A stretch of DNA of 33,290 bases from Bacteroidales bacterium. Lineage in GTDB: Bacteria; Bacteroidota; Bacteroidia; Bacteroidales; UBA7960. A program made the position numbers and the translations under genes. The notes under the pieces are model-generated. The model was not told where the DNA came from. It saw nothing but the letters and a program-made list of their open reading frames with translations, and searched no databases. Location of the stretch: NCBI GenBank assembly GCA_007118135.1, contig SKSE01000149.1, forward strand, positions 1-33,290. The letters are read 5' to 3'. Shown here in pieces: positions 9,094 through 30,536 of the stretch. Positions within the stretch are counted from its first letter, which is position 1, and each line of letters opens with the position of its first letter.

Positions 9094-11874
9094 TTAGGGG
9101 CGGGGAATCTCCCTGATATAAATGTCCCTGAACTCGGCTCGGGATGCATGTGCCTGTAATTCAATAACTTCCTTGTCGAAGACAGGGATGCTTCGGTCCC
9201 AGAAGTTCTCAAGCACCACATTATCTGTAACCAGCAGGCCGTTGAGATACACGGTAACCTTATCGTCGATCATGACAATGCGGAAAGTATTCCACTCATC
9301 TATGGGATTGTCAGCCACCAAAAGCGGATCACTCTGATACTTCTGGTTATTATATAAGCCACCCGAACCGACCTGAGCTCCTACTTCAATGAGCGCAGTA
9401 TCCCAGGCCTGCACCTGTGGAGTACCCCGGAGATACAATCCTGAGTCTCCTTCAGGTTCTAACTTCCAGTCAATGTACAATTCAAAATCGCCATACATCT
9501 TTTCAGTGCATATGTTATCGAAGCCATCGCCTTTATAAATGAGTATTCCGTCTTCCACATGCCAATTGCTTCGCATGAGTTCATCGGCTTTTTCCTGCTC
9601 AGCAGCAAGCTCCTCGGGAGTCATGTTTGCCCGGGCAATCGGGTTTCTCACCAGTCCTTTCCATCCGGTAAGGTCAACACCGTTAAAAATCGATACAAAA
9701 CCCCCTTCATCAGGTAGTTCTGACAAGTGTCTCAGGAGCGCCTCCCTCTGATAGTCTGCTTCTGCATCCTGATTAACATCTATGGCTTTGTAAACAATCT
9801 CATTTACAGCAGGACCATAAAGGTCACTGTTTTCAAGTACGATATTCTGTATAGATTGCACGGCAACCTGCTTTAGTTCAGGATCATCAAGATATCCTGA
9901 AAGAAACACCAAGGCCATCAGCGTTTTATTAGCTGAAATTTGATTTAGTATCATTCGTTTTTGCTGAAGGGTTGTGGCAAGCTCCATCGCATTCCGGAAC
10001 ATCAGCACCTTTTGGTCTTCTGGCTCACCCGAACGATTGATCCCCCCTATATAACCCGACAGTGCCTGCTCGCGCAAACGGCTATCGTTGTTTGTTTGGG
10101 CAGTATTCCATAGTATTGGCATTGCAGCCGGATCGTTCCAAACAGTCAATGCTCCAATGGCAGCTTCCTTTTGCTCCATACTACCTGAGTGAATTGCATT
10201 TTCCATTAACGACAATGACTCTTCACCTCCAATCCGTGCAAGTACCCGATAATAATTGATTTCAGCGGCTCCCGGACTGGTCATAAAACCGGTTACGATA
10301 TCAACCTGTTGTGAAGTGCTTTCCTTCCCGCTTAAAGCTTTTAACAGGGCATCCTGCAAGGCAATTATATCTTCATTAGTGCTTACCTTATTCAGTAATG
10401 CAGCAATTTTTTCCTCATCGCCTGGTTTTGCAACTGCAGGTAAAGCTGTAATTGCGGCATTTACTATCCGGGTATCATTGTTTTGAGTATCAGAGAAAAT
10501 AAGTGCGGAATGTCGTTCGGCCTGTTTCTGAGCAATAATGTCAATGAAAGCAATACGTGCCAATCCATCAGATTGGGGTAATACTTTGGCAACAGCGTCG
10601 GCAATTTCATCACCATCAATGATAAGAAGCGACTCTTTGACCGCATGAATTAACTCAGCATCTGCAGTATTCATAATTCTAAGTAATCCTGGCACCGATT
10701 CCTTGTGCCTTAAGGAAGCCACTGCATGAACAGCTGCCAACTGAACCTCTCTGTTATCAGACTGAAGTGATTCTGTGATAAATGGAACTGCATTGCGATA
10801 ATTTTTTTGGGAAAGCAGCCATATTATTTCTGAACGGAGAGCCATGTTACCGGTAGACCTGGCCAGATTTAAAAGTTCACCAGCCACATCGTCTGAGTAA
10901 TGCTCATCCAACAGGTATAATGCTGTCATGCGAAACTCGTTACTTGATGACTGCAGTGCCTGCAAAAGTTGAGGTAACGGCACCTGATCCAAAGCATTTG
11001 TAAATATTCGTAAGGTTCTGCTACGGGTTTGCACCGGAACATTCTCATTGAACATGATTTTTTCAAGATCATTTACCGCGGCTGTCTTATGTTCTCCTGT
11101 CGCCATATTTTCAAGCAACAATAAATAGGAAGCAGTTGCCTCAGTTGCTTCCCAGGCAAAACCTGCTCTCCGGGCTGCCCTCTCCAGGCGTGATTTCGAA
11201 CGTACATGAGTCATTTCAGCCAAAGCACGCATTGCGGCTTTTGTCTCATCAACTTTTGAGGAACGTGCCATTCTTCTGAGAGAATTTGCCGCAGGGGTAT
11301 ACTGCAATGCACCCAGTGCCTGTGCAATAATAACTTTGTTTTCACCTGTTGCACCTGGAAAAGCATCCAACAGGGCCTTTCCGGCACTTTCTGATGAAAT
11401 ATTTATAAGTACGCGGGCAGCAGGATCAGCAAGCCTTTTGTGCTTTAGCAACGCAGCCATGGCAGGAACAGCTTCGTCGCCGGCAATATATTGCAACTCC
11501 TGAAGCAGAAAATCCTTTACCTCATCGTCTTGCACAGAAGCAATTGCTTTGGTAAGTGCCTGAGAGCACTCCCGCATTTTTTCAGGTTTGCTCCCATCGG
11601 CAATATATTTCACAAGACTACCTATGGCATAGCGTTCTTTTGTATCATCTCCCTGGCCCGGAGCAACCAATGAGGGTGTTAATGTGGCAATAACCTGCCC
11701 ACTCATCTGCGATAATTCTCCCATAATATGGTTAAAATCTTCACTGTTTTGCGCCGGCAAATGCATAAGCAAGTCGGCAATTATTGTCTGGTTTGTCCGA
11801 TTTTGCGGCTGTTGCGCCCAAATGCCCAAAAGAAGCATGGAGCATATAACTGTAAATAAAGCTTTTTTCATCAT
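9094..11874 (-). CDS. HEAT-repeat protein fused to a DUF1080 (3-keto-disaccharide hydrolase-like) domain
   Basis: A signal peptide (about 1-21, ending IWAQQPQ) is followed by some 690 residues of helical pairs typical of HEAT repeats (for example AVPAMAALLKHKRLADPAARVLINI and EVQLAAVHAVASLRHKESVPGLL). A DUF1080 domain starts near residue 724 (FVSIFNGVDLTGWKG) and includes DFELYIDWKLEPEGDSGLYLRG and WNTFRIVMIDDKVTVYLNG. DUF1080 members act on 3-keto sugars as hydrolases or lyases, or bind glycans with a concanavalin-like sandwich. The HEAT part probably serves binding or display. The neighbouring oxidoreductase, ending 24 bases upstream of this start, could make the 3-keto substrate. An alternative start is the second methionine. 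Confidence 0.88.
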   Translation of the reverse strand: MMKKALFTVICSMLLLGIWAQQPQNRTNQTIIADLLMHLPAQNSEDFNHIMGELSQMSGQVIATLTPSLVAPGQGDDTKERYAIGSLVKYIADGSKPEKMRECSQALTKAIASVQDDEVKDFLLQELQYIAGDEAVPAMAALLKHKRLADPAARVLINISSESAGKALLDAFPGATGENKVIIAQALGALQYTPAANSLRRMARSSKVDETKAAMRALAEMTHVRSKSRLERAARRAGFAWEATEATASYLLLLENMATGEHKTAAVNDLEKIMFNENVPVQTRSRTLRIFTNALDQVPLPQLLQALQSSSNEFRMTALYLLDEHYSDDVAGELLNLARSTGNMALRSEIIWLLSQKNYRNAVPFITESLQSDNREVQLAAVHAVASLRHKESVPGLLRIMNTADAELIHAVKESLLIIDGDEIADAVAKVLPQSDGLARIAFIDIIAQKQAERHSALIFSDTQNNDTRIVNAAITALPAVAKPGDEEKIAALLNKVSTNEDIIALQDALLKALSGKESTSQQVDIVTGFMTSPGAAEINYYRVLARIGGEESLSLMENAIHSGSMEQKEAAIGALTVWNDPAAMPILWNTAQTNNDSRLREQALSGYIGGINRSGEPEDQKVLMFRNAMELATTLQQKRMILNQISANKTLMALVFLSGYLDDPELKQVAVQSIQNIVLENSDLYGPAVNEIVYKAIDVNQDAEADYQREALLRHLSELPDEGGFVSIFNGVDLTGWKGLVRNPIARANMTPEELAAEQEKADELMRSNWHVEDGILIYKGDGFDNICTEKMYGDFELYIDWKLEPEGDSGLYLRGTPQVQAWDTALIEVGAQVGSGGLYNNQKYQSDPLLVADNPIDEWNTFRIVMIDDKVTVYLNGLLVTDNVVLENFWDRSIPVFDKEVIELQAHASRAEFRDIYIREIPRP

Positions 11875-11898: not shown

Positions 11899-13152
11899 TC
11901 AGATATTCCAGGGTGCCCTTAATGGTTGATTAATCATTAGGTTGGCAGCATGGTCGCCAATAAATTCACATTTTACGGGATCAAACTTCAGCGAACGCCC
12001 AAGACGAATAGCAACCAAGGCCATGTTTACAATGGTTCCCGAGCGGAAACCGTTATCTTCATTCAAAGCAAATTTTTGTCGTGTTCTAACAGATTCGGAG
12101 AAGTTTGTAATCTGACGGGCAGGATTTGGCATGGATGCAAGTTTCTTTTCTAAATCGGGGATATCGCTACGGAAACCTCTAAAGAGCTTTCCATTGGGAC
12201 CTTCAATATATGCGGCATCCTTATCTTTATTGTCACCATCCAATATTATTTTGCAACCATCGTCATAGGTAAGTTCTACCCGTTTCCATACACCAGCTGC
12301 ATCAGGATGCTGCTGTTCGGTATCTACATCAACTGCAATCGGACTGGTATTGTCTTTACCAAGGAAATATTGAACAGGATCGAGGTAATGTTGCCCCATG
12401 TCGCCCAAACCACCGCCATCGTAATCCCAATAACCGCGGAAAGTACTATGAACTCTATGCGGATGATAGGGTTTAAACGGAGCCGGACCCAGCCACATAT
12501 CGTAATCAAGATGTGATGGAACCTCTTGAACATCTAAATCCGTACGTCCAACCCAAAAGAATTTCCAATCGAAGCCTGTGGCATCGTTTACTGTTACCTT
12601 CAAAGGCCAGCCAAGCAGTCCGCTGTCGACCAGTTTTTTTATCTTATCTACCGTAGTTTGCATACCGTAGAAATTATCCTTGAACCGGAACCATGTGTTA
12701 AGACGGAACATTCTGCCGTATTCCGCCATGGCTTCTTTTACCCGAAGTCCTTCTCCGATGGTCCGTGTCATAGGCTTTTCGCACCATATATCTTTTCCTG
12801 CCCGTGCTGCATCAACACACATTACACCATGCCAGTGGGGCGGTGTAGCTATATGCACTATATCTATCTCCGGATTGAGGAGCAACTCGCGGTAATCATG
12901 ATACGCCTTTACCGGATATCCTAATGCTTGTTTAGCAAGTTCAATATGCTTTTTATCCACATCGCAAATGGCTAATACCCGCGTGTTATCATAAGGAATA
13001 TGACCTCGCCCCATAGCACCGACACCAATAATTGCTTTAGTAAGCCTGTCGGATGGAGCGATATACTTTGCACCACCCAAAACCCAGGAAGGAACAATGG
13101 AGAAAACAGCTGCAGTAGCCGCTCCTTTTTTGATAAAATCTCTTCTGTCCAT
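11899..13152 (-). CDS. Gfo/Idh/MocA family oxidoreductase with Tat-like signal
   Basis: The 417-residue protein opens with a twin-arginine-like leader (MDRRDFIKKGAATAAVFSIV), then a Rossmann fold with GVGAMGRGH (about 43-51) for NAD(P) and the family's EKP motif at 125-127 (WCEKPMTRTIGEG). The second domain holds GGGLGDMGQHYLDPVQYF, whose Asp and His match the usual catalytic pair. Such exported enzymes oxidise or reduce sugar hydroxyls, and several act with DUF1080 partners in 3-keto-glycoside pathways. That partnership is suggested here by the next gene starting only 24 bases downstream. Substrate and cofactor retention in the periplasm are not visible. Confidence 0.92.
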   Translation of the reverse strand: MDRRDFIKKGAATAAVFSIVPSWVLGGAKYIAPSDRLTKAIIGVGAMGRGHIPYDNTRVLAICDVDKKHIELAKQALGYPVKAYHDYRELLLNPEIDIVHIATPPHWHGVMCVDAARAGKDIWCEKPMTRTIGEGLRVKEAMAEYGRMFRLNTWFRFKDNFYGMQTTVDKIKKLVDSGLLGWPLKVTVNDATGFDWKFFWVGRTDLDVQEVPSHLDYDMWLGPAPFKPYHPHRVHSTFRGYWDYDGGGLGDMGQHYLDPVQYFLGKDNTSPIAVDVDTEQQHPDAAGVWKRVELTYDDGCKIILDGDNKDKDAAYIEGPNGKLFRGFRSDIPDLEKKLASMPNPARQITNFSESVRTRQKFALNEDNGFRSGTIVNMALVAIRLGRSLKFDPVKCEFIGDHAANLMINQPLRAPWNI

Positions 13153-13411: not shown

Positions 13412-15889
13412 TTAATGAACTCTTTCAGGCTCTCCGACCACCTTAAACTCAAATTTCAACACCGGCGATTGCTCTCCGGAAAATTGCCCCGTGACTTCTA
13501 CCCTATTCTCTCCCTCCGACCATATTGGTAATGTTGTAAATTCAATCTTTTTACGGGGTTTCCAAAAAGTATCTGTAATATACAGGCTTTCACCGTCAAA
13601 AACAATGCAATCCCCTGCCTTAACGGGTTCATCGATACTGATTACCTGATAGTTATTGAATGAAATGGTCAATCCGGAAATGTATGCTGTTCTGTTTCCA
13701 TCCGTAGGTGAAGTAGTCATATAAAACCTGGCCGGTTGATCATCGTATGGATTATTGAATGCAAACCTACCGGCAACAGGTTCGCCGGTTTGCACCTCCC
13801 TGTAGGCATGCTCGAAACCTCTGAAAAGCATCAATTGACGTAATTCCCAATGATTTTCATCCACCTTAGTCAACTGAAACTCATTATTGGGGTTCTTGAG
13901 TCGCTCAATCTGGTCAGGCGAGAAGACCTTTGCATGCCTGGCCTTTTGCCATTCGCGGATTGCCTCGAAAAGCCGGTCGCGAAAACCGCTTTGCTCTATC
14001 CTATCATCTATACGCAACAGGTAACCCGCATCGTATCCTGCGCTTCTTGCCTGTATCCATTCCACATCTTCGGGGCGAAATTCGGGATGCAGAACAAACC
14101 ATCCCAACATACCTGGCATCAGGTTACGGTCGAAGTAGCGCTGATTTTCGATACGGTAGTTTACCTGACTTTCGCGCAAGGCATCGTACCATGGTTCGCC
14201 CCAGTTCATAAATGAATAAATGTGCCAGTAAAAGTGAAAAGTTCCTGCGCCACATGTGAGCCGGTATCGGTCAAGGTTATTGTACCACTCTTCAATAAAC
14301 AGCCCTGCTGCATATTGATCATGCCCGGTAGGCGATGCAGCAGCATGTGGATAGCCGTCGAAGTCCATCAGGTCAATTCCGGTTTCATTGCATACTTCTG
14401 CAAGTCGTCGGGCATATTCCTGCTGGAGGTGAATATCGGGGTAAAAGCCACTATAACTATTGTTTGTGAGTTTGTCGATTTTGGTTCCGGCTTCAAAAGC
14501 TGCCGGGGTGGTACCAAACTGCCCTCTTCGGCAATCGAGCAGGCGCCAGGGTTCTTCGTCAGATACCTTCCGGTAGTTTATCAATTCCTTGCCTATTTTA
14601 ACTGTATGGGTTAAACCGGGGTACAGGAAAAACATTGGGTCTTCAATGTAGATAACATCGTCATCAATTGCAAGGTCTCTGGTAATCAATGCGCTTCCAG
14701 TTCTGGCCAGGCTGTCGCTGGGAACGGGTGTTACGTAGGGATCGTGCGGAGATGTGAACATGGCAAGGGTATGCACACCCAGTGAAATACCTTCCTGCCT
14801 GGCAGCATCAGTAATTGCCCTGATCTCATCAGCGCCACCAGGAAAACGGCCTGTTGTCAGACCAAAATGCCCCCATGACTGGAAAATATCACCAATATGG
14901 ATTAGGTTAAATCCGCACTCTTTAGCATATTTCATACTTTTATACGGATCGCCTTCGTTGAGCAGATATGCTTGTCCGGGAATATCAGATCGCTTTATCC
15001 ACTCTCCGTTAAGCTTAGGATAAGGCAGACCTTCACCGAGGACGATTTTTTCAATATGGTCGAGTGTTTCGGGCTCCGGACAACCAAATATGGCAATGGC
15101 GCTGCCGATAAAATCAACATCAATTGGCTCTACATATTGCAAGTAGTTTGCCGGCCCCTCCCATACCTGAATAATCCGGGGAATTCTATAATCGCGTGAG
15201 AACAGGCGTAACTCGCTTCCCACACGCGTCTTAACCGCAGCAGCCCCCCTGTAAAGCCGCACATAAGGTGGCATATCACCGGCTACATTTACGTCAATAC
15301 TCACCCTGGTACCGGTAAGTCTTCGTATTGAATCAGAGACCTCTTGTCCGGGTAAAGGTTCTATTACAAAACCACCTGAATTGTCAGCATCGGGCAACCC
15401 TTCTATGGTTTTTATATTGAGGCCCTGCATTCCAATGGCAAATTCGCTGTCTCTCACAACGCAAATGGTTTCCCCTATTTTCTCATCTATAGTGGTAGAA
15501 TAAGGGCCCCATACTACAGCCTGAATGCCGTTGCGGGGTTCGACCGATAAAAGTTCAAATCGCAGGTAATCGGTTTTATTCTCAACGCTGATGGTAGCCA
15601 GCGAACCATTCTTATAAGATAATACAAGCTCCTTCTTATCGTGATCAAAATGAGCCGATGTCGGTTGAAAGTATACCGAATCCATGTAGAGAGCAAGTAC
15701 AGGTGATTTAATACCCCGTGGAATATAGGATATGTCTCCCGGTTTACTTTGCAATTGAGAGATATATCCATTTTTATCAATACCAAGCTTTAAGTAAGTG
15801 GTTTCAAACACTATACTGTCGCGGCTGCAGGAAAGCTGCAATAAAAACATTAAAAGCAAAAGCAGTTTTGTTGTGGTCTTTTTAATCAT
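13412..15889 (-). CDS. Lipoprotein with glycosidase-like barrel, family not recognised
   Basis: A lipoprotein signal (MIKKTTTKLLLLLMFLLQLSC, lipid cysteine about 21) leads an 825-residue protein. Residues about 25-265 look like a beta-sandwich of the kind ahead of GH36/GH97 barrels. From about 300 the sequence looks like a TIM barrel: CGFNLIHIGDIFQSWG, EGISLGVHTLAMF, and GIDLMDFDGYPH (Asp509, Asp511 as candidate catalytic residues). A strand-rich insert (about 400-470) interrupts it. A C-terminal sandwich (about 690-825) follows. It lies 79 bases after the GH110 gene, so it probably acts on the same glycan. I know no family with this combination; alpha-galactosidase-like activity is a guess. 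Confidence 0.6.
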   Translation of the reverse strand: MIKKTTTKLLLLLMFLLQLSCSRDSIVFETTYLKLGIDKNGYISQLQSKPGDISYIPRGIKSPVLALYMDSVYFQPTSAHFDHDKKELVLSYKNGSLATISVENKTDYLRFELLSVEPRNGIQAVVWGPYSTTIDEKIGETICVVRDSEFAIGMQGLNIKTIEGLPDADNSGGFVIEPLPGQEVSDSIRRLTGTRVSIDVNVAGDMPPYVRLYRGAAAVKTRVGSELRLFSRDYRIPRIIQVWEGPANYLQYVEPIDVDFIGSAIAIFGCPEPETLDHIEKIVLGEGLPYPKLNGEWIKRSDIPGQAYLLNEGDPYKSMKYAKECGFNLIHIGDIFQSWGHFGLTTGRFPGGADEIRAITDAARQEGISLGVHTLAMFTSPHDPYVTPVPSDSLARTGSALITRDLAIDDDVIYIEDPMFFLYPGLTHTVKIGKELINYRKVSDEEPWRLLDCRRGQFGTTPAAFEAGTKIDKLTNNSYSGFYPDIHLQQEYARRLAEVCNETGIDLMDFDGYPHAAASPTGHDQYAAGLFIEEWYNNLDRYRLTCGAGTFHFYWHIYSFMNWGEPWYDALRESQVNYRIENQRYFDRNLMPGMLGWFVLHPEFRPEDVEWIQARSAGYDAGYLLRIDDRIEQSGFRDRLFEAIREWQKARHAKVFSPDQIERLKNPNNEFQLTKVDENHWELRQLMLFRGFEHAYREVQTGEPVAGRFAFNNPYDDQPARFYMTTSPTDGNRTAYISGLTISFNNYQVISIDEPVKAGDCIVFDGESLYITDTFWKPRKKIEFTTLPIWSEGENRVEVTGQFSGEQSPVLKFEFKVVGEPERVH

Positions 15890-15968: not shown

Positions 15969-17789
15969 TTAATGCCGGATAATCTCTTTCAAATCAGTTT
16001 TTATTTCATTTTCTTCCATTTGTTCCAGTTTTATAACTGGCTTTGTCTGTATATCCCATATATTTCCGGTAATTTCAACACTATGGCAATTGTTCAGGTT
16101 AAAGTCCGGTCGGTTGCCCTGGGGCAAATCACCAATATCTCTTCTGATAATTTTGTTATTTAAAAAGCTGAGATTTTTAGTGCTTTTGGCAATGAGTAGC
16201 GGCGAATCAAATACCCTGAAAATGTTTTCCTCAATTCGGATATTCCGGTGAACGTAAAAACCGTCAACTGCCTGATGGTTTTCGGGGGCAATGGAAATAA
16301 TGTAATTGTTTGGTGCTGAGTTGTAGCCGCAGTTTTCGAATATATTATTGCGGATGGTAACATCGGTGACCGGCCCCGATTCAAACCAACTTGATGCATC
16401 GTTGGCTATGAGGATACCATGCATGCCGGTGTGCGAAAAATGGTTGTTTTCGATGACTACCTTGCGGCGCGTAGTTACAAGAAGACCGCGGGTGTTCACT
16501 CGGGTGAAAAAGTTATTGGTAACACGTACTTCAGGGGTCCATGTAATATTTTCGATTACCTGTCCTGTTTCTGTATTTTTGGGAAGCGGCCCTTCCAATT
16601 CGACTTCCATTTCGCGGAGGTTGATAAGCTTCGCCGATTTTACTTTGCTGTAGGCCAACGGTTGCAAAGTTGGCGCATTTACAAAAGCAATGCTGTCGCC
16701 GGCAAAAAAAGCCTCGAAACCATAGCTCTGATGATGCATGAACCTGACCTGTATTTTGTTTTCTCCCAAGATATCGGTGATTTTCAAATGGGTACCATGA
16801 ACATTAATGGGGTCATCGTGTGAGCCGGATGTATAGCAACTGTCAATGGTTATCAGTCCTTTACAACCCGAGAAATGAAAGCAATCGGCAAATGCGGCAA
16901 TTATCCTTCCCGATCCTTCACGTGGGGCAACCCTAACCTTGCGAAACGAGATGTTCTCCGAAAATTGTGATACGATGCCCATCCCATGCATATAGTGCAT
17001 GTTCACGTTGTATAAACTGATATTGGTGGAGCGATTGATAAAACCACCACAGTTATCCCTGTAAGGGTCGCGGGTAGTCAACACATCGCCCGGTCTGAAG
17101 TGTGTTCCCGAAAAATCGCCTTCGAACCTAACCCTGAACGGGGCGGTTTCTATGGCTGTACTGCTTAAAAATGGCCTGAAATTGCTGTAAACCATCGCTT
17201 CCAGTTCAGGCCGGAACAGAATGGTGTGGTGGGCGTTGGTTTTCCAGCCTTCTCCATAAAATACAATGCGGCCATCATCAATCATATACCGGGAGTCGGG
17301 GTGTATCTCGGTTTCAACCACATTGTTATACACCGATCGAATAGTTAGTTCCGACATGGTTGGTCTTTCGTAATCGAAGCTGATGTTTTGGATCCGGATA
17401 TTTCTGCTGTTTTTCAGGGCAAAAGAGATCATCTTGCCATGCAGGACAACCAGGGTTTGGTTTCCTTCTATAGTAAAATCTTCAAGGTCTTCAAGCCAAA
17501 AGGCAATGTTTCTCACCTTGCTCAGGGTATCGTTTTCAGTGCTGTTCGAAATAAAAAGTTCTTCTCTGAAAGCACCTTCAGGCCACAGGTCGATGCGTCC
17601 ACCGGGAAGTTTCAATACCACATCTTTTTTGCCTCGACACCATTCGATAGCGGCCCTAAGGGCAGGCGATGAGTTGGAAAATGTATTTGGCTTTACGCCC
17701 CAATCAGCCAAATCAACAATTTGTTGAGCTGCCAATGGGTTTGTTAACAAAATTAGCAGAAGGAATAATATCCTGATTTTGTTTTTCAT
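15969..17789 (-). CDS. Alpha-1,3-galactosidase, GH110
   Basis: The 606-residue protein has a signal peptide (about 1-21, PLAAQQ) and a right-handed beta-helix rich in short Asn/Ile turns. It carries the GH110 core: HGMGIVSQFSENISFRKV, then ADCFHFSGCKG and SGSHDDPINVHGTH. Asp302, Asp325 and Asp326 have exactly the spacing (+23, +24) I recall for the catalytic Asp321, Asp344 and Asp345 of the Pseudoalteromonas enzyme. GH110 enzymes remove alpha-1,3-galactose, as in blood-group B or linear alpha-Gal ends, with inversion. The start codon overlaps the stop of the upstream GH29 gene by four bases, which implies coupled translation of fucosidase and galactosidase. Branched versus linear preference is not readable. 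Confidence 0.93.
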   Translation of the reverse strand: MKNKIRILFLLLILLTNPLAAQQIVDLADWGVKPNTFSNSSPALRAAIEWCRGKKDVVLKLPGGRIDLWPEGAFREELFISNSTENDTLSKVRNIAFWLEDLEDFTIEGNQTLVVLHGKMISFALKNSRNIRIQNISFDYERPTMSELTIRSVYNNVVETEIHPDSRYMIDDGRIVFYGEGWKTNAHHTILFRPELEAMVYSNFRPFLSSTAIETAPFRVRFEGDFSGTHFRPGDVLTTRDPYRDNCGGFINRSTNISLYNVNMHYMHGMGIVSQFSENISFRKVRVAPREGSGRIIAAFADCFHFSGCKGLITIDSCYTSGSHDDPINVHGTHLKITDILGENKIQVRFMHHQSYGFEAFFAGDSIAFVNAPTLQPLAYSKVKSAKLINLREMEVELEGPLPKNTETGQVIENITWTPEVRVTNNFFTRVNTRGLLVTTRRKVVIENNHFSHTGMHGILIANDASSWFESGPVTDVTIRNNIFENCGYNSAPNNYIISIAPENHQAVDGFYVHRNIRIEENIFRVFDSPLLIAKSTKNLSFLNNKIIRRDIGDLPQGNRPDFNLNNCHSVEITGNIWDIQTKPVIKLEQMEENEIKTDLKEIIRH

Positions 17790-28130: not shown

Positions 28131-30536
28131 CTAATCTACGTAAAATGCTGAAAACACCTTTATGTCGGGTTCGGCTATGCTTTCTCCGATGGTTAGGCGC
28201 AGCCTGTCAACCCTGACATCATCGAATAGCTCTATGCGTTTATGACCAACCGACTCCCCCTCGCATAAAGTAACCCAACTGCCACCTATCCTGCCTTCCA
28301 CCTTGTATTTTCTGATCCTTTCCCCGTTTTTGATCTCTTCCTGTATGATCACATGGTTTACAGGCTGTCTGCTCCCCAGGTTTATGGTATGCACATTTCC
28401 TTTACCGGAAATGGTGGCCAGTGGGGTCTCAAAGCGCCTTCTGATCTCGTCACCCCACTCTTTGATCCGGGTTACATCAGGTTCAGGCATCAGACCAGTG
28501 GGATCAGGGGTAAGCCCCATGATCAGGGTCGAGTTCCTTCCAACGGACTTATAATACATCTCCATTAGGTTCTCCAAAGGGAAAATGTGGTCTTCGTCTT
28601 CAGGTTCCCAGAACCACTCATGGCGTCCATTATACCCGCGCAAGGGTGCATCGCTCATGGCAGGCATCCAATACGGCCCATCAGGATCGCCAGTCTTCAG
28701 CAGTTGAAAATTGTTGTCTGCAATTTCTTTTCGGGCCGACTCTCCTGCACCTGTCGAATAATACGGAAAAGTGGCCCAGCAGGGATAGGCAACAGTCCCT
28801 GACTCGGAACCGCCCCACCTGGCTTCTGCAAGTTGCAGATTATGATAAAATAGTGCGTTAGGCTGATATTGTTGCACAATGGGCAGCACATCGGGGGCTC
28901 CATTTTTGGGGTGGTCGGCGCCACCGTCGAACCAGACTTTGAAAAGCTCTCCGTAGTTGGTACATAATTCCTTTACCATGCCTTCAACCATCTGCTTATA
29001 CCAATGCTGGCGGTTCTCACGAAAAGGACCTTCACCCTTTACCTGGAAATCATGAACACCAAGAAATGAATTCCAGCGAATCCCAACATATATGCCCGGT
29101 TTAATGCCATACTTGAGGCACGAGTTCACAAAATCACGCACAATATCACCCTGTCCGTCCTGAAAATTAAGCGCCCTCATGCTGTAAGGGTTCACGTCCG
29201 ACTGGTATATGGCGAATCCGGTTTCGTGTGTGGCGGTAATCAGCGCAAAGGTAAACCCGGCATCCTTGATCGCTTTTACCCACTGGTCGGTATCAAGGTT
29301 TTCCGGATTGAAAATCTGGTAATCGGGCATTGGGTTGATCCTGTTCTGGTGTTGATTGTATCTTTTCCCGTCAAAAACGTGCAGGTCATAATGAAAGATG
29401 GCCCCCAACTCAGCCTCCTGCCAGGCCAGCTGACGGTGGTTGGGAAGAGGTGTCGGTTGCTCTTTTACAGGGAGAAATACGATGTAAGCATCATTGCCCT
29501 CTCTCACCGCCAAACTCAGCACCTTTGGTTCGCCATCCTCCTGATATACAAACGGGCGCTCCATGCGGTTGGGGATCACTTCAGAACCATCCAACAACGG
29601 GATCCGTTTGTGTTGAATCGCATATTCAGTGGCTTTTTGCCAGTCGATTCCATCTGTCGAGGTGATCATTCCTGTAAAATGATGCGCATGGAAAACACCG
29701 TAAAACCTGCCGCGTCCGGCATCGAACCAAACCGACATGTCTTCTGTGTCCATGTAATCAATCACTGCTCCGGGCTGCATTTCAAAAGGGCCTGCGGGCG
29801 TGTCGGAGATGGCCACGACCTGGTTGCGGGTAAATTGGGTGTCGGGCTTGTCACCTTTGACAATCAGGTAATACCTGCCATCACCGCCCTTTGAAATGGC
29901 GGGGTTAACGGTTAAAGTGATAATCGGACCTGAAGGTTCGATCAGTGGTTGATCCATGCGTATCCAGGGACCGTCGATTGACTCGGCCACTGCCACCCCG
30001 GTGCGCTGGTTCGGACGAAGGTATTCTCTCCAATTCGGGTGGCTATATCCCACACGGGCGGTCTCGATAAGCTCTTCTTCGGTGTAATCACGATCGCCCA
30101 TGTTGGTGGATACATAGTATAGATAATATTTCCCATCAAATTTCTTTATTTTGGGATTGTGAATCGTTATGGCATCCCAGTGCCCTTTCCCACGGCTCTG
30201 CATAACAGTTTCCTTATATTCCCAGGGGCCGGCCGGACTGTCGGAAACAGCACGGGCAATCTCGGAATGGGTCAACCAGCTCAGAAAAGTATATTCTTTA
30301 GGCCACCGCGAATAGAAAAGGTGGTACCTGCCATCGTCGCCCTTGATGATTGACGAACACCAGTTGAAGTAAACATCAGACTTAAAGATGTTTTCTTCTG
30401 CCAAAGGTTGCAGCCGATCTTTAAAAAACAGGTCGTCGGCAACATACTCTGAAAAAACAGCTGGCATTCCTAATAAAAATAAAACCAGTGATATTAGTGT
30501 TCTTGTTCTCAAAAAATTATTTTGTAAATGCTTCAT
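28131..30536 (-). CDS. Fusion of a GH43-like beta-propeller and a GH29 fucosidase
   Basis: After a signal peptide (about 1-29) residues 33-358 form a five-bladed-propeller-like domain related to GH43/GH117-type proteins: FNWCSSIIKGDDGRYHLFYSRWP, WDAITIHNPKIKKFDGKYYLYYVS and AISKGGDGRYYLIVKG. A short linker (QPTPLPNHRQ) leads at 371 into a GH29 barrel: AWQEAELGAIFHYDLHVFDG, ITATHETGF, and KVWFDGGAD with Asp537 as predicted nucleophile, ending STLIMGLTPDPTGLMP. A C-terminal sandwich (about 715-801) resembles the discoidin-like tail of such fucosidases. The barrel motif usually written KHHDG reads THETG here. The GH20 gene ends 11 bases upstream of its ATG. The propeller's substrate is unknown. 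Confidence 0.85.
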   Translation of the reverse strand: MKHLQNNFLRTRTLISLVLFLLGMPAVFSEYVADDLFFKDRLQPLAEENIFKSDVYFNWCSSIIKGDDGRYHLFYSRWPKEYTFLSWLTHSEIARAVSDSPAGPWEYKETVMQSRGKGHWDAITIHNPKIKKFDGKYYLYYVSTNMGDRDYTEEELIETARVGYSHPNWREYLRPNQRTGVAVAESIDGPWIRMDQPLIEPSGPIITLTVNPAISKGGDGRYYLIVKGDKPDTQFTRNQVVAISDTPAGPFEMQPGAVIDYMDTEDMSVWFDAGRGRFYGVFHAHHFTGMITSTDGIDWQKATEYAIQHKRIPLLDGSEVIPNRMERPFVYQEDGEPKVLSLAVREGNDAYIVFLPVKEQPTPLPNHRQLAWQEAELGAIFHYDLHVFDGKRYNQHQNRINPMPDYQIFNPENLDTDQWVKAIKDAGFTFALITATHETGFAIYQSDVNPYSMRALNFQDGQGDIVRDFVNSCLKYGIKPGIYVGIRWNSFLGVHDFQVKGEGPFRENRQHWYKQMVEGMVKELCTNYGELFKVWFDGGADHPKNGAPDVLPIVQQYQPNALFYHNLQLAEARWGGSESGTVAYPCWATFPYYSTGAGESARKEIADNNFQLLKTGDPDGPYWMPAMSDAPLRGYNGRHEWFWEPEDEDHIFPLENLMEMYYKSVGRNSTLIMGLTPDPTGLMPEPDVTRIKEWGDEIRRRFETPLATISGKGNVHTINLGSRQPVNHVIIQEEIKNGERIRKYKVEGRIGGSWVTLCEGESVGHKRIELFDDVRVDRLRLTIGESIAEPDIKVFSAFYVD

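Follow-up and report, generated by a model that had tools for sequence, protein, structure and literature searches.

The 33,290-nucleotide stretch of DNA analysed here (the window) carries, amid genes for glycan breakdown, an open reading frame for an 825-aa protein of no recognised family, and we asked what this protein is, which of its residues could be catalytic and what kind of sugar it might act on. The frame was called and translated from an ATG start on the minus strand (Table 1), and the plus-strand reading of the same positions contains many stops. Of the 29 candidate stretches that a contig scan yielded, 22 encode relatives, some of them truncated at a contig end, and the 19 query-type genes that were aligned (L001-L019) are 48-79% identical to the 825-aa protein; the frame is therefore a genuine ORF, beyond chance. 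Read by eye, the N-terminus looks like a lipoprotein signal, with LSC at residues 19-21 following a hydrophobic stretch. The same-strand flanks are a GH110 gene (15969-17789) and a gene for a Gfo/Idh/MocA oxidoreductase (11899-13152), and transcription along this one strand proceeds in the order GH92, GH29, GH110, the 825-aa gene, the oxidoreductase, a protein with HEAT repeats and a 3-keto-disaccharide hydrolase domain, GH29, GH38 and GH97, with a 4-base overlap between the GH29 and GH110 genes. The gene set of the window comprises GH92, GH29, GH110, GH38, GH97 and GH20 genes as well as two sulfatases.

Table 1. Features of the 825-aa gene and its product, in window coordinates.
Feature	Position	Strand	Basis
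Whole ORF, predicted secreted lipoprotein glycosidase	13412..15889	minus	ORF call, translation, relatives
Residues 1-21, hydrophobic signal ending LSC, likely lipoprotein signal	15827..15889	minus	Read by eye; helix 3-19 in model
Residues 25-290, N-terminal beta domain	15020..15817	minus	Model; aligns with the barrel onto GH36 structures
Residues 305-665, barrel domain	13895..14977	minus	Model, fold searches, profile comparison
Residues 391-482, inserted six-strand beta-barrel, phage baseplate/tail-related	14444..14719	minus	Profile, PHROGs, fold
Residues 509-512, DFDG; D511 codon 14357-14359, predicted nucleophile	14354..14365	minus	Model, alignment, conservation
E565 of NWGE, predicted acid/base	14195..14197	minus	Alignment; inferred
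Residues 670-825, C-terminal beta domain	13415..13882	minus	AlphaFold2 model

No Pfam model was above cut-off for the 825-aa protein, and at E up to 1 the sole match was a sub-threshold one of residues 432-470 to Rcc01698_C (PF23666; 16.7 of 27 bits, E 0.009). Melibiase PF02065 (GH36) and the GH31 and GH129 models were not matched at E up to 1, nor did the Pfam models for the N, catalytic and C domains of GH97, for Glyco_hydro_101 or for Alpha_L_fucos (GH29) match the protein, the similarity to GH29 lying at remote profile level. The NCBIfam search gave zero matches, and searches of the PDB by single sequence and by profile gave chance-level matches only (E about 1). Nine further relatives had no catalytic family above the Pfam cut-off; the accessory domains above it were Laminin_G_3 (L087, L094) and F5/8 type C (L085), and in NCBIfam the nine produced just one fimbrial match, far below cut-off, in the Laminin_G_3 region of L087. 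The family is thus without a name in Pfam and NCBIfam, in line with the original prediction, which recognised no family for it, and its novelty is judged against these two collections. We recognised no published description of the family, or of the activity of any member, in the open-access papers searched. As far as the accessible parts of the respective papers go, the recently added GH195 is related to GH99 (PMC13063451), GH191 is related to GH114 (PMC12054363), and GH192-194 originate from a paper on beta-1,2-glucanases.

The reading that we consider probable, on the basis of the predicted fold and of alignments, is that the gene product is secreted, probably anchored by a lipid, and hydrolyses alpha-glycosides with retention; it would represent an undescribed family of the alpha-galactosidase superfamily, the fold group to which GH36, GH31, GH101 and GH129 belong. 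An AlphaFold2 model built on the 22 sequences of the family profile A1 (mean pLDDT 83.4, pTM 0.80) bore out the proposed layout of sandwich, barrel and sandwich, with the approximate borders given in Table 1. In the model a strand at 507-511 ends at D511, extra strands lie at 396-474, and confidence is low within 540-580, the stretch with E565, the blocks of 541-580 scoring 68, 60 and 53, below their surroundings. Foldseek against the PDB gave its top E-value to GH101 EngBF (6e-15) and also ranked high the alpha-galactosidase 8k1a, a close GH36 relative (3e-14), FpGalactosaminidase 8x1b, which we take to belong to GH36 (5e-13), and the GH129-like 5opq (2e-12); alpha-glucosidase structures, presumably of GH31, were also among the matches listed. 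VIA-align superimposed the model on 8x1b over 460 residues (model range 26-685, Z 16.4, rmsd 5.5) and on larger GH36 entries over about 440-470 residues (Z 14-16), and the predicted structure thus appears to share the combination of beta domain and barrel found in GH36. However, GH27-type and some amylase barrels also reached Z 14-15, and therefore the barrel alone singles out no family; a common fold is by itself no proof of function. A comparison with GH36, GH97 and GH31 had been suggested at the outset, and the GH36 fold was matched; two GH97 sequences reached 20% in hhalign, and GH31 gave no Pfam match at E up to 1. The likeness to the Zobellia enzyme 5opq, a 3,6-anhydro-D-galactosidase, is one of fold and of being an enzyme of a polysaccharide-utilisation locus; searches of the PDB by sequence did not match the 825-aa protein to 5opq, which, in the accessible part of the source, comes from a carrageenan locus that also has GH127 and sulfatase genes (PMC5698469). 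Its authors argued there for a new family, given 16% identity to GH129 and catalytic residues that are not shared (PMC5698469).

Profiles were compared with hhalign after taking out the insert columns. The family then aligned with eight GH36 sequences over residues 304-561, corresponding to barrel strands 1-5 (prob 94.5, score 65.0), and with six divergent melibiases over residues 319-513, strands 2-4 (prob 97.0, score 84.7), compared with best scores of 18.6 and 20.9, respectively, in 40 column shuffles each. When the insert was kept, the match to GH36 shrank to 61.7 over 66 columns and that to the melibiases to 95.2 over 54, neither reaching D511, and single sequences gave probabilities of 0.9 to 83.8 (8 GH36 sequences) and 13.9 to 92.6 (6 melibiases). 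Control families compared without the insert (GH20, GH2, GH38, GH92, GH95, GH3, GH123 and Gfo/Idh, two of them as single sequences) had a prob of 1.1 or less, and one unknown neighbour protein had 2.2. For three GH101 sequences the strand-4 Asp aligned with D511, but the match was weak (46%), its score of 40.6 being little above the 33.7 reached in 40 shuffles.

These alignments bear on whether the protein is simply a very divergent branch inside GH36, or inside a different family with this fold, and not a new family. The GH36 and melibiase alignments both fall within the barrel, and among the nine relatives scanned only L096, from Verrucomicrobiota, touched the Melibiase model, with 16.0 bits against a cut-off of 27 (E 0.006). 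Like AgaA and FpGalactosaminidase, the 825-aa protein would combine an N-terminal beta domain with a barrel and place D511 where these enzymes have the catalytic Asp at the end of strand 4. Yet the protein itself lacks a Melibiase match in Pfam, is only 8-11% identical to the GH36 structures among the matches listed by VIA-align, has an Asp in place of the Lys of the K-x-D motif, offers E and not D as acid/base candidate and carries a phage-type barrel after strand 3. A Lys was absent from column 509 in all 87 rows, so that K-x-D is not found even though its D is kept, and we regard a placement inside GH36, or inside a different family with its fold, as improbable.

An alpha-fucosidase-like enzyme closer to GH29 than to GH36 was weighed in the same way. 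Four GH29-type proteins of the window aligned over 242 columns (prob 93.9, score 59.7, best of 40 shuffles 15.6), placing D511 opposite the Asp of WFDG, which we take to be the GH29 nucleophile, and an xFDG motif at strand 4 is common to both; fucosidase-type genes also occur in the window, and GH95-type genes in three related loci (L001, L008, L016). Against this, Alpha_L_fucos was not matched in Pfam, and the 50 matches listed by each of Foldseek and VIA-align included GH36-, GH101- and GH31-type structures in which the N-terminal beta domain was aligned too; GH29 structures were absent from these listed matches, which does not decide against a GH29-like fold. A fucosidase of this kind is very improbable in our view, but since the GH29 prob lies near that of GH36, the profile match does not point to a single family or a single sugar.

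The undescribed alpha-glycosidase that we favour would have D511 as its nucleophile, and this assignment, like that of the fold group, is well supported by computation. Conservation was read in an alignment of 88 relatives, 4 of 92 sequences (under 350 aa) having been removed beforehand, and a tree was built by a quick method from 87 rows after the removal of 1 of the 88; two of these rows, L102 and L103, fall outside every clade and had their residues read separately, and the distant Verrucomicrobiota rows carry a long-branch warning. All 87 relatives with a letter in the D511 column have D, and 84 of 87 have G in the next one. On the evidence of model, alignment and conservation, D511 would be the Asp with which barrel strand 4 ends, the place of the nucleophile in retaining alpha-glycosidases, and to this extent the earlier proposal of such an enzyme is supported. 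In the profile alignments it stands opposite the D of KWD in GH36 and of KIDG in the melibiases, with D509 opposite the Lys in both. The KWD Asp is D478 of AgaA by residue numbering, and D478A is named in the PDB title of 4fnu, the stachyose complex; WTSD of AgaA holds D548, which is named in the title of the raffinose complex 4fnt.

Both aspartates of DFDGYPH (residues 509-515) had been put forward as a catalytic pair, with their loss among homologues as an observation that would speak against the proposed new family. Both are kept, together with E565, in all 21 members of the query clade, but in the wider family half of the motif fails this test, as D509 does not hold: column 509 has D in 49 of 87 rows, Y in 16, S in 12, H in 4, E in 3 and P, A and N in 1 each. 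Only D511 therefore fits a shared nucleophile, and because D509 is variable in the family and stands opposite the Lys of K-x-D, it appears to be at most a clade-specific subsite residue.

E565 is the best candidate for the acid/base, since GH36 has NWLSD or TWTSD at the place of its NWGE, although the local GH36 alignment ends just short of it and the global alignment has a gap there. This place is acidic in all 60 rows with sequence across seven clades, including 21 of 21 in the query clade. It is non-acidic throughout clade B (0/18 acidic) and clade I (0/5), as well as in L102 and L103, so the acid/base may lie elsewhere. The lack of an acidic residue there in clade B, together with the loss in 19 of 21 query-clade members of an acidic residue at D511+3 that is usual elsewhere in the family, would suit a non-catalytic relative of glycosidases that binds glycans and aids their capture by SusC/SusD. 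The position of the gene would suit it as well: in 10 of the 18 query-clade loci with upstream sequence, the gene next upstream is a SusD, recognised by its similarity to a Pfam-checked one, and the place downstream of SusD is often held by glycan-binding lipoproteins. Nevertheless, the invariance of D511 and the retention of all three residues in the query clade would be unusual for dead enzymes, and we consider such a binding protein rather unlikely. In the catalytic reading, D511 would attack the anomeric carbon and E565 would serve as acid/base. If the enzyme is active, it would add a glycosidase family.

The strand-rich insert at 400-470 had been singled out as unusual, and it is, but it is not private to this protein: a phage-type barrel occurs across the family, inserted after the third strand of the glycosidase barrel and before the fourth. 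The Pfam model Rcc01698_C was touched by 16 of 22 members at E up to 1, with 0.00019 as the best value. PHROGs matched residues 386-475 to a virion structural protein family (E 8e-5) and residues 428-471 to a tail protein family (E 0.004), with no further family for the 825-aa protein at E up to 0.01. An alignment of residues 391-482 across 30 members (A2) was compared by hhalign with three phage-tail sequences (L042, L050, L138) and scored 66.8 (97.8%), compared with at most 18.9 in 100 column shuffles; this comparison is partly selected, as L042 and L050 were first found through the family profile, L138 coming from the Pfam search and a fourth phage-tail locus, L139, being left out without a motif match. 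L042 and L050 are phage tail proteins with 58.8 and 53.7 of 27 bits to Rcc01698_C.

Modelled alone, the insert formed six strands (pLDDT 89.7). Foldseek gave no match for it at E up to 0.001, the best being a phage VP1 chain at 0.0032. In VIA-align three phage chains led with Z 10.0, 9.6 and 9.2, the JBD30 baseplate chain 8rk3_b having Z 9.6 over 90 residues (rmsd 3.4), followed by other phage rows at 7.0-7.7 and F1-ATPase barrels at about 6; the margin is modest, as unrelated models often reach Z 7-8. Run against 247 genomes from the phylum of the window, the insert profile matched 13 times in 11 genomes; 11 of the matches were in family members and 2 in tail proteins of one genome, G193. By profile, PHROGs and fold, the insert is thus related to the beta-barrel of phage baseplate and tail proteins (JBD30 8rk3_b; Rcc01698_C), differing from these in that it would lie inside a glycosidase barrel and in that its Pfam score is below cut-off. 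Domain B forms a wall of the substrate cleft in other alpha-glycosidases, and by analogy the inserted barrel may form one wall of the cleft here. If the enzyme is active, this raises the question of how a barrel common to phage tails came into an enzyme.

Two residues of the insert, E435 and R455, are invariant in 88 of 88 sequences, but they were set aside as catalytic candidates, since L042, L050 and L138, all phage tail sequences, have the same E and R. The accessible text of the GTA baseplate paper had no residue-level match on the role of the phage domain (PMC7296036). A phage origin of the 825-aa gene was likewise rejected, as the only phage-collection record with a relative (MT835657) is bacterial DNA. 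This record, MT835657.1 (L153), is an UNVERIFIED 'Bacteriophage sp.' entry from human faeces that looks like a bacterial polysaccharide-utilisation locus and holds SusC-, SusD-, GH95-, GH29-, sulfatase- and GH20-like genes together with part of a family member.

The family spans Bacteroidota, Verrucomicrobiota and Actinomycetota, at times with several copies per genome; the window's own genome holds a second member at 35% identity. At E up to 0.001, profile A1 matched 14 genomes among 395 from the phylum of the window, counting the one that holds the window itself; 13 are left when G193 is set aside, which matched only via its two phage tail proteins. Of 288 genomes drawn from the phylum of an Akkermansiaceae MAG, 27 matched, some weakly, and a single-sequence search in the class of L011's genome matched 2 of 295, one being L011's own genome; in Actinomycetota, two Embleya plasmid records matched at 28%. 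With 13/395 and 27/288 genomes carrying an unnamed family, the loci that hold it are easily misread. We give about even odds to the broader proposal that these sequences form a large undescribed superfamily of retaining alpha-glycosidases across the three phyla, with a cleft domain that is the barrel shared with phages, and with clades that differ at nucleophile-2 (D, S, Y, H) and in the acid/base, and would therefore probably act on different sugars, some of them without a known family. A 16-row clade (among L086-L099, L101, L111 and L041), mostly from the Verrucomicrobiota draw, has Y in place of D509. Open frames in the same draw were as long as 1578 aa, and some carried Laminin_G_3 domains. 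Elsewhere an in-frame TAG interrupts the family member of L037 (G034), and those of L068 and L084 contain one TAA each.

It is most likely that the enzyme belongs to polysaccharide-utilisation loci, as a retaining alpha-glycosidase that would trim an alpha-linked sugar off branched glycans handled by SusC/SusD systems. The flanking GH110 and oxidoreductase genes had originally been taken to tie the protein to glycan breakdown, but although both are present as neighbours in the window, each was near relatives in only 1 of 22 loci, and there on the opposite strand (L013 for GH110, L017 for Gfo/Idh), several loci being cut by contig ends; we therefore rejected them as evidence on the substrate. 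GH110 enzymes are, in the accessible part of the source, alpha-1,3-galactosidases acting on blood group B or Gal-alpha-1,3-Gal, with a proposed role on lambda-carrageenan (PMC7939477), and these substrates do not carry over to the 825-aa gene. Family paralogues lie within 4 genes in 9 of 22 loci. Across loci the neighbours include GH95-, GH78- (rhamnosidase), GH2-, GH3-, GH20-, GH92-, GH38-, GH97-, GH43-, GH123-, GH120-like and GH127-like genes, and since they vary from locus to locus (GH78-, GH43-, GH127-like, GH2, GH3), the context fixes no sugar. The gene set of the window together with MT835657 hints at fucosylated, sulfated, hexosamine-containing glycans, and sugars of galactose, GalNAc or fucose type would agree best with the nearest folds and with the neighbouring genes in the window, several candidates standing.

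Some neighbours gave no Pfam match at E up to 0.001 (L010:1911-3941, L001:18298-21096, L014:6926-9844, L018:12603-14996, L012:5306-6652, L021:5837-8398 and L021:8449-10647). The one in L018 strongly resembles a protein of L022 (1065 bits), which itself has just sub-threshold GH127 and borderline GH76 matches. Within the window, a single ORF at 28131-30536 combines a GH43-type region, matched in three stretches with 39.8 of 32.2 bits, with a GH29-type domain (PF01120, residues 407-696). At 9094-11874 a 3-keto-disaccharide hydrolase domain is fused to HEAT repeats; the adjoining Gfo/Idh protein resembles glycoside 3-dehydrogenases in a sub-cut-off match, and the pair may represent a keto-sugar route alongside the ordinary glycosidases.
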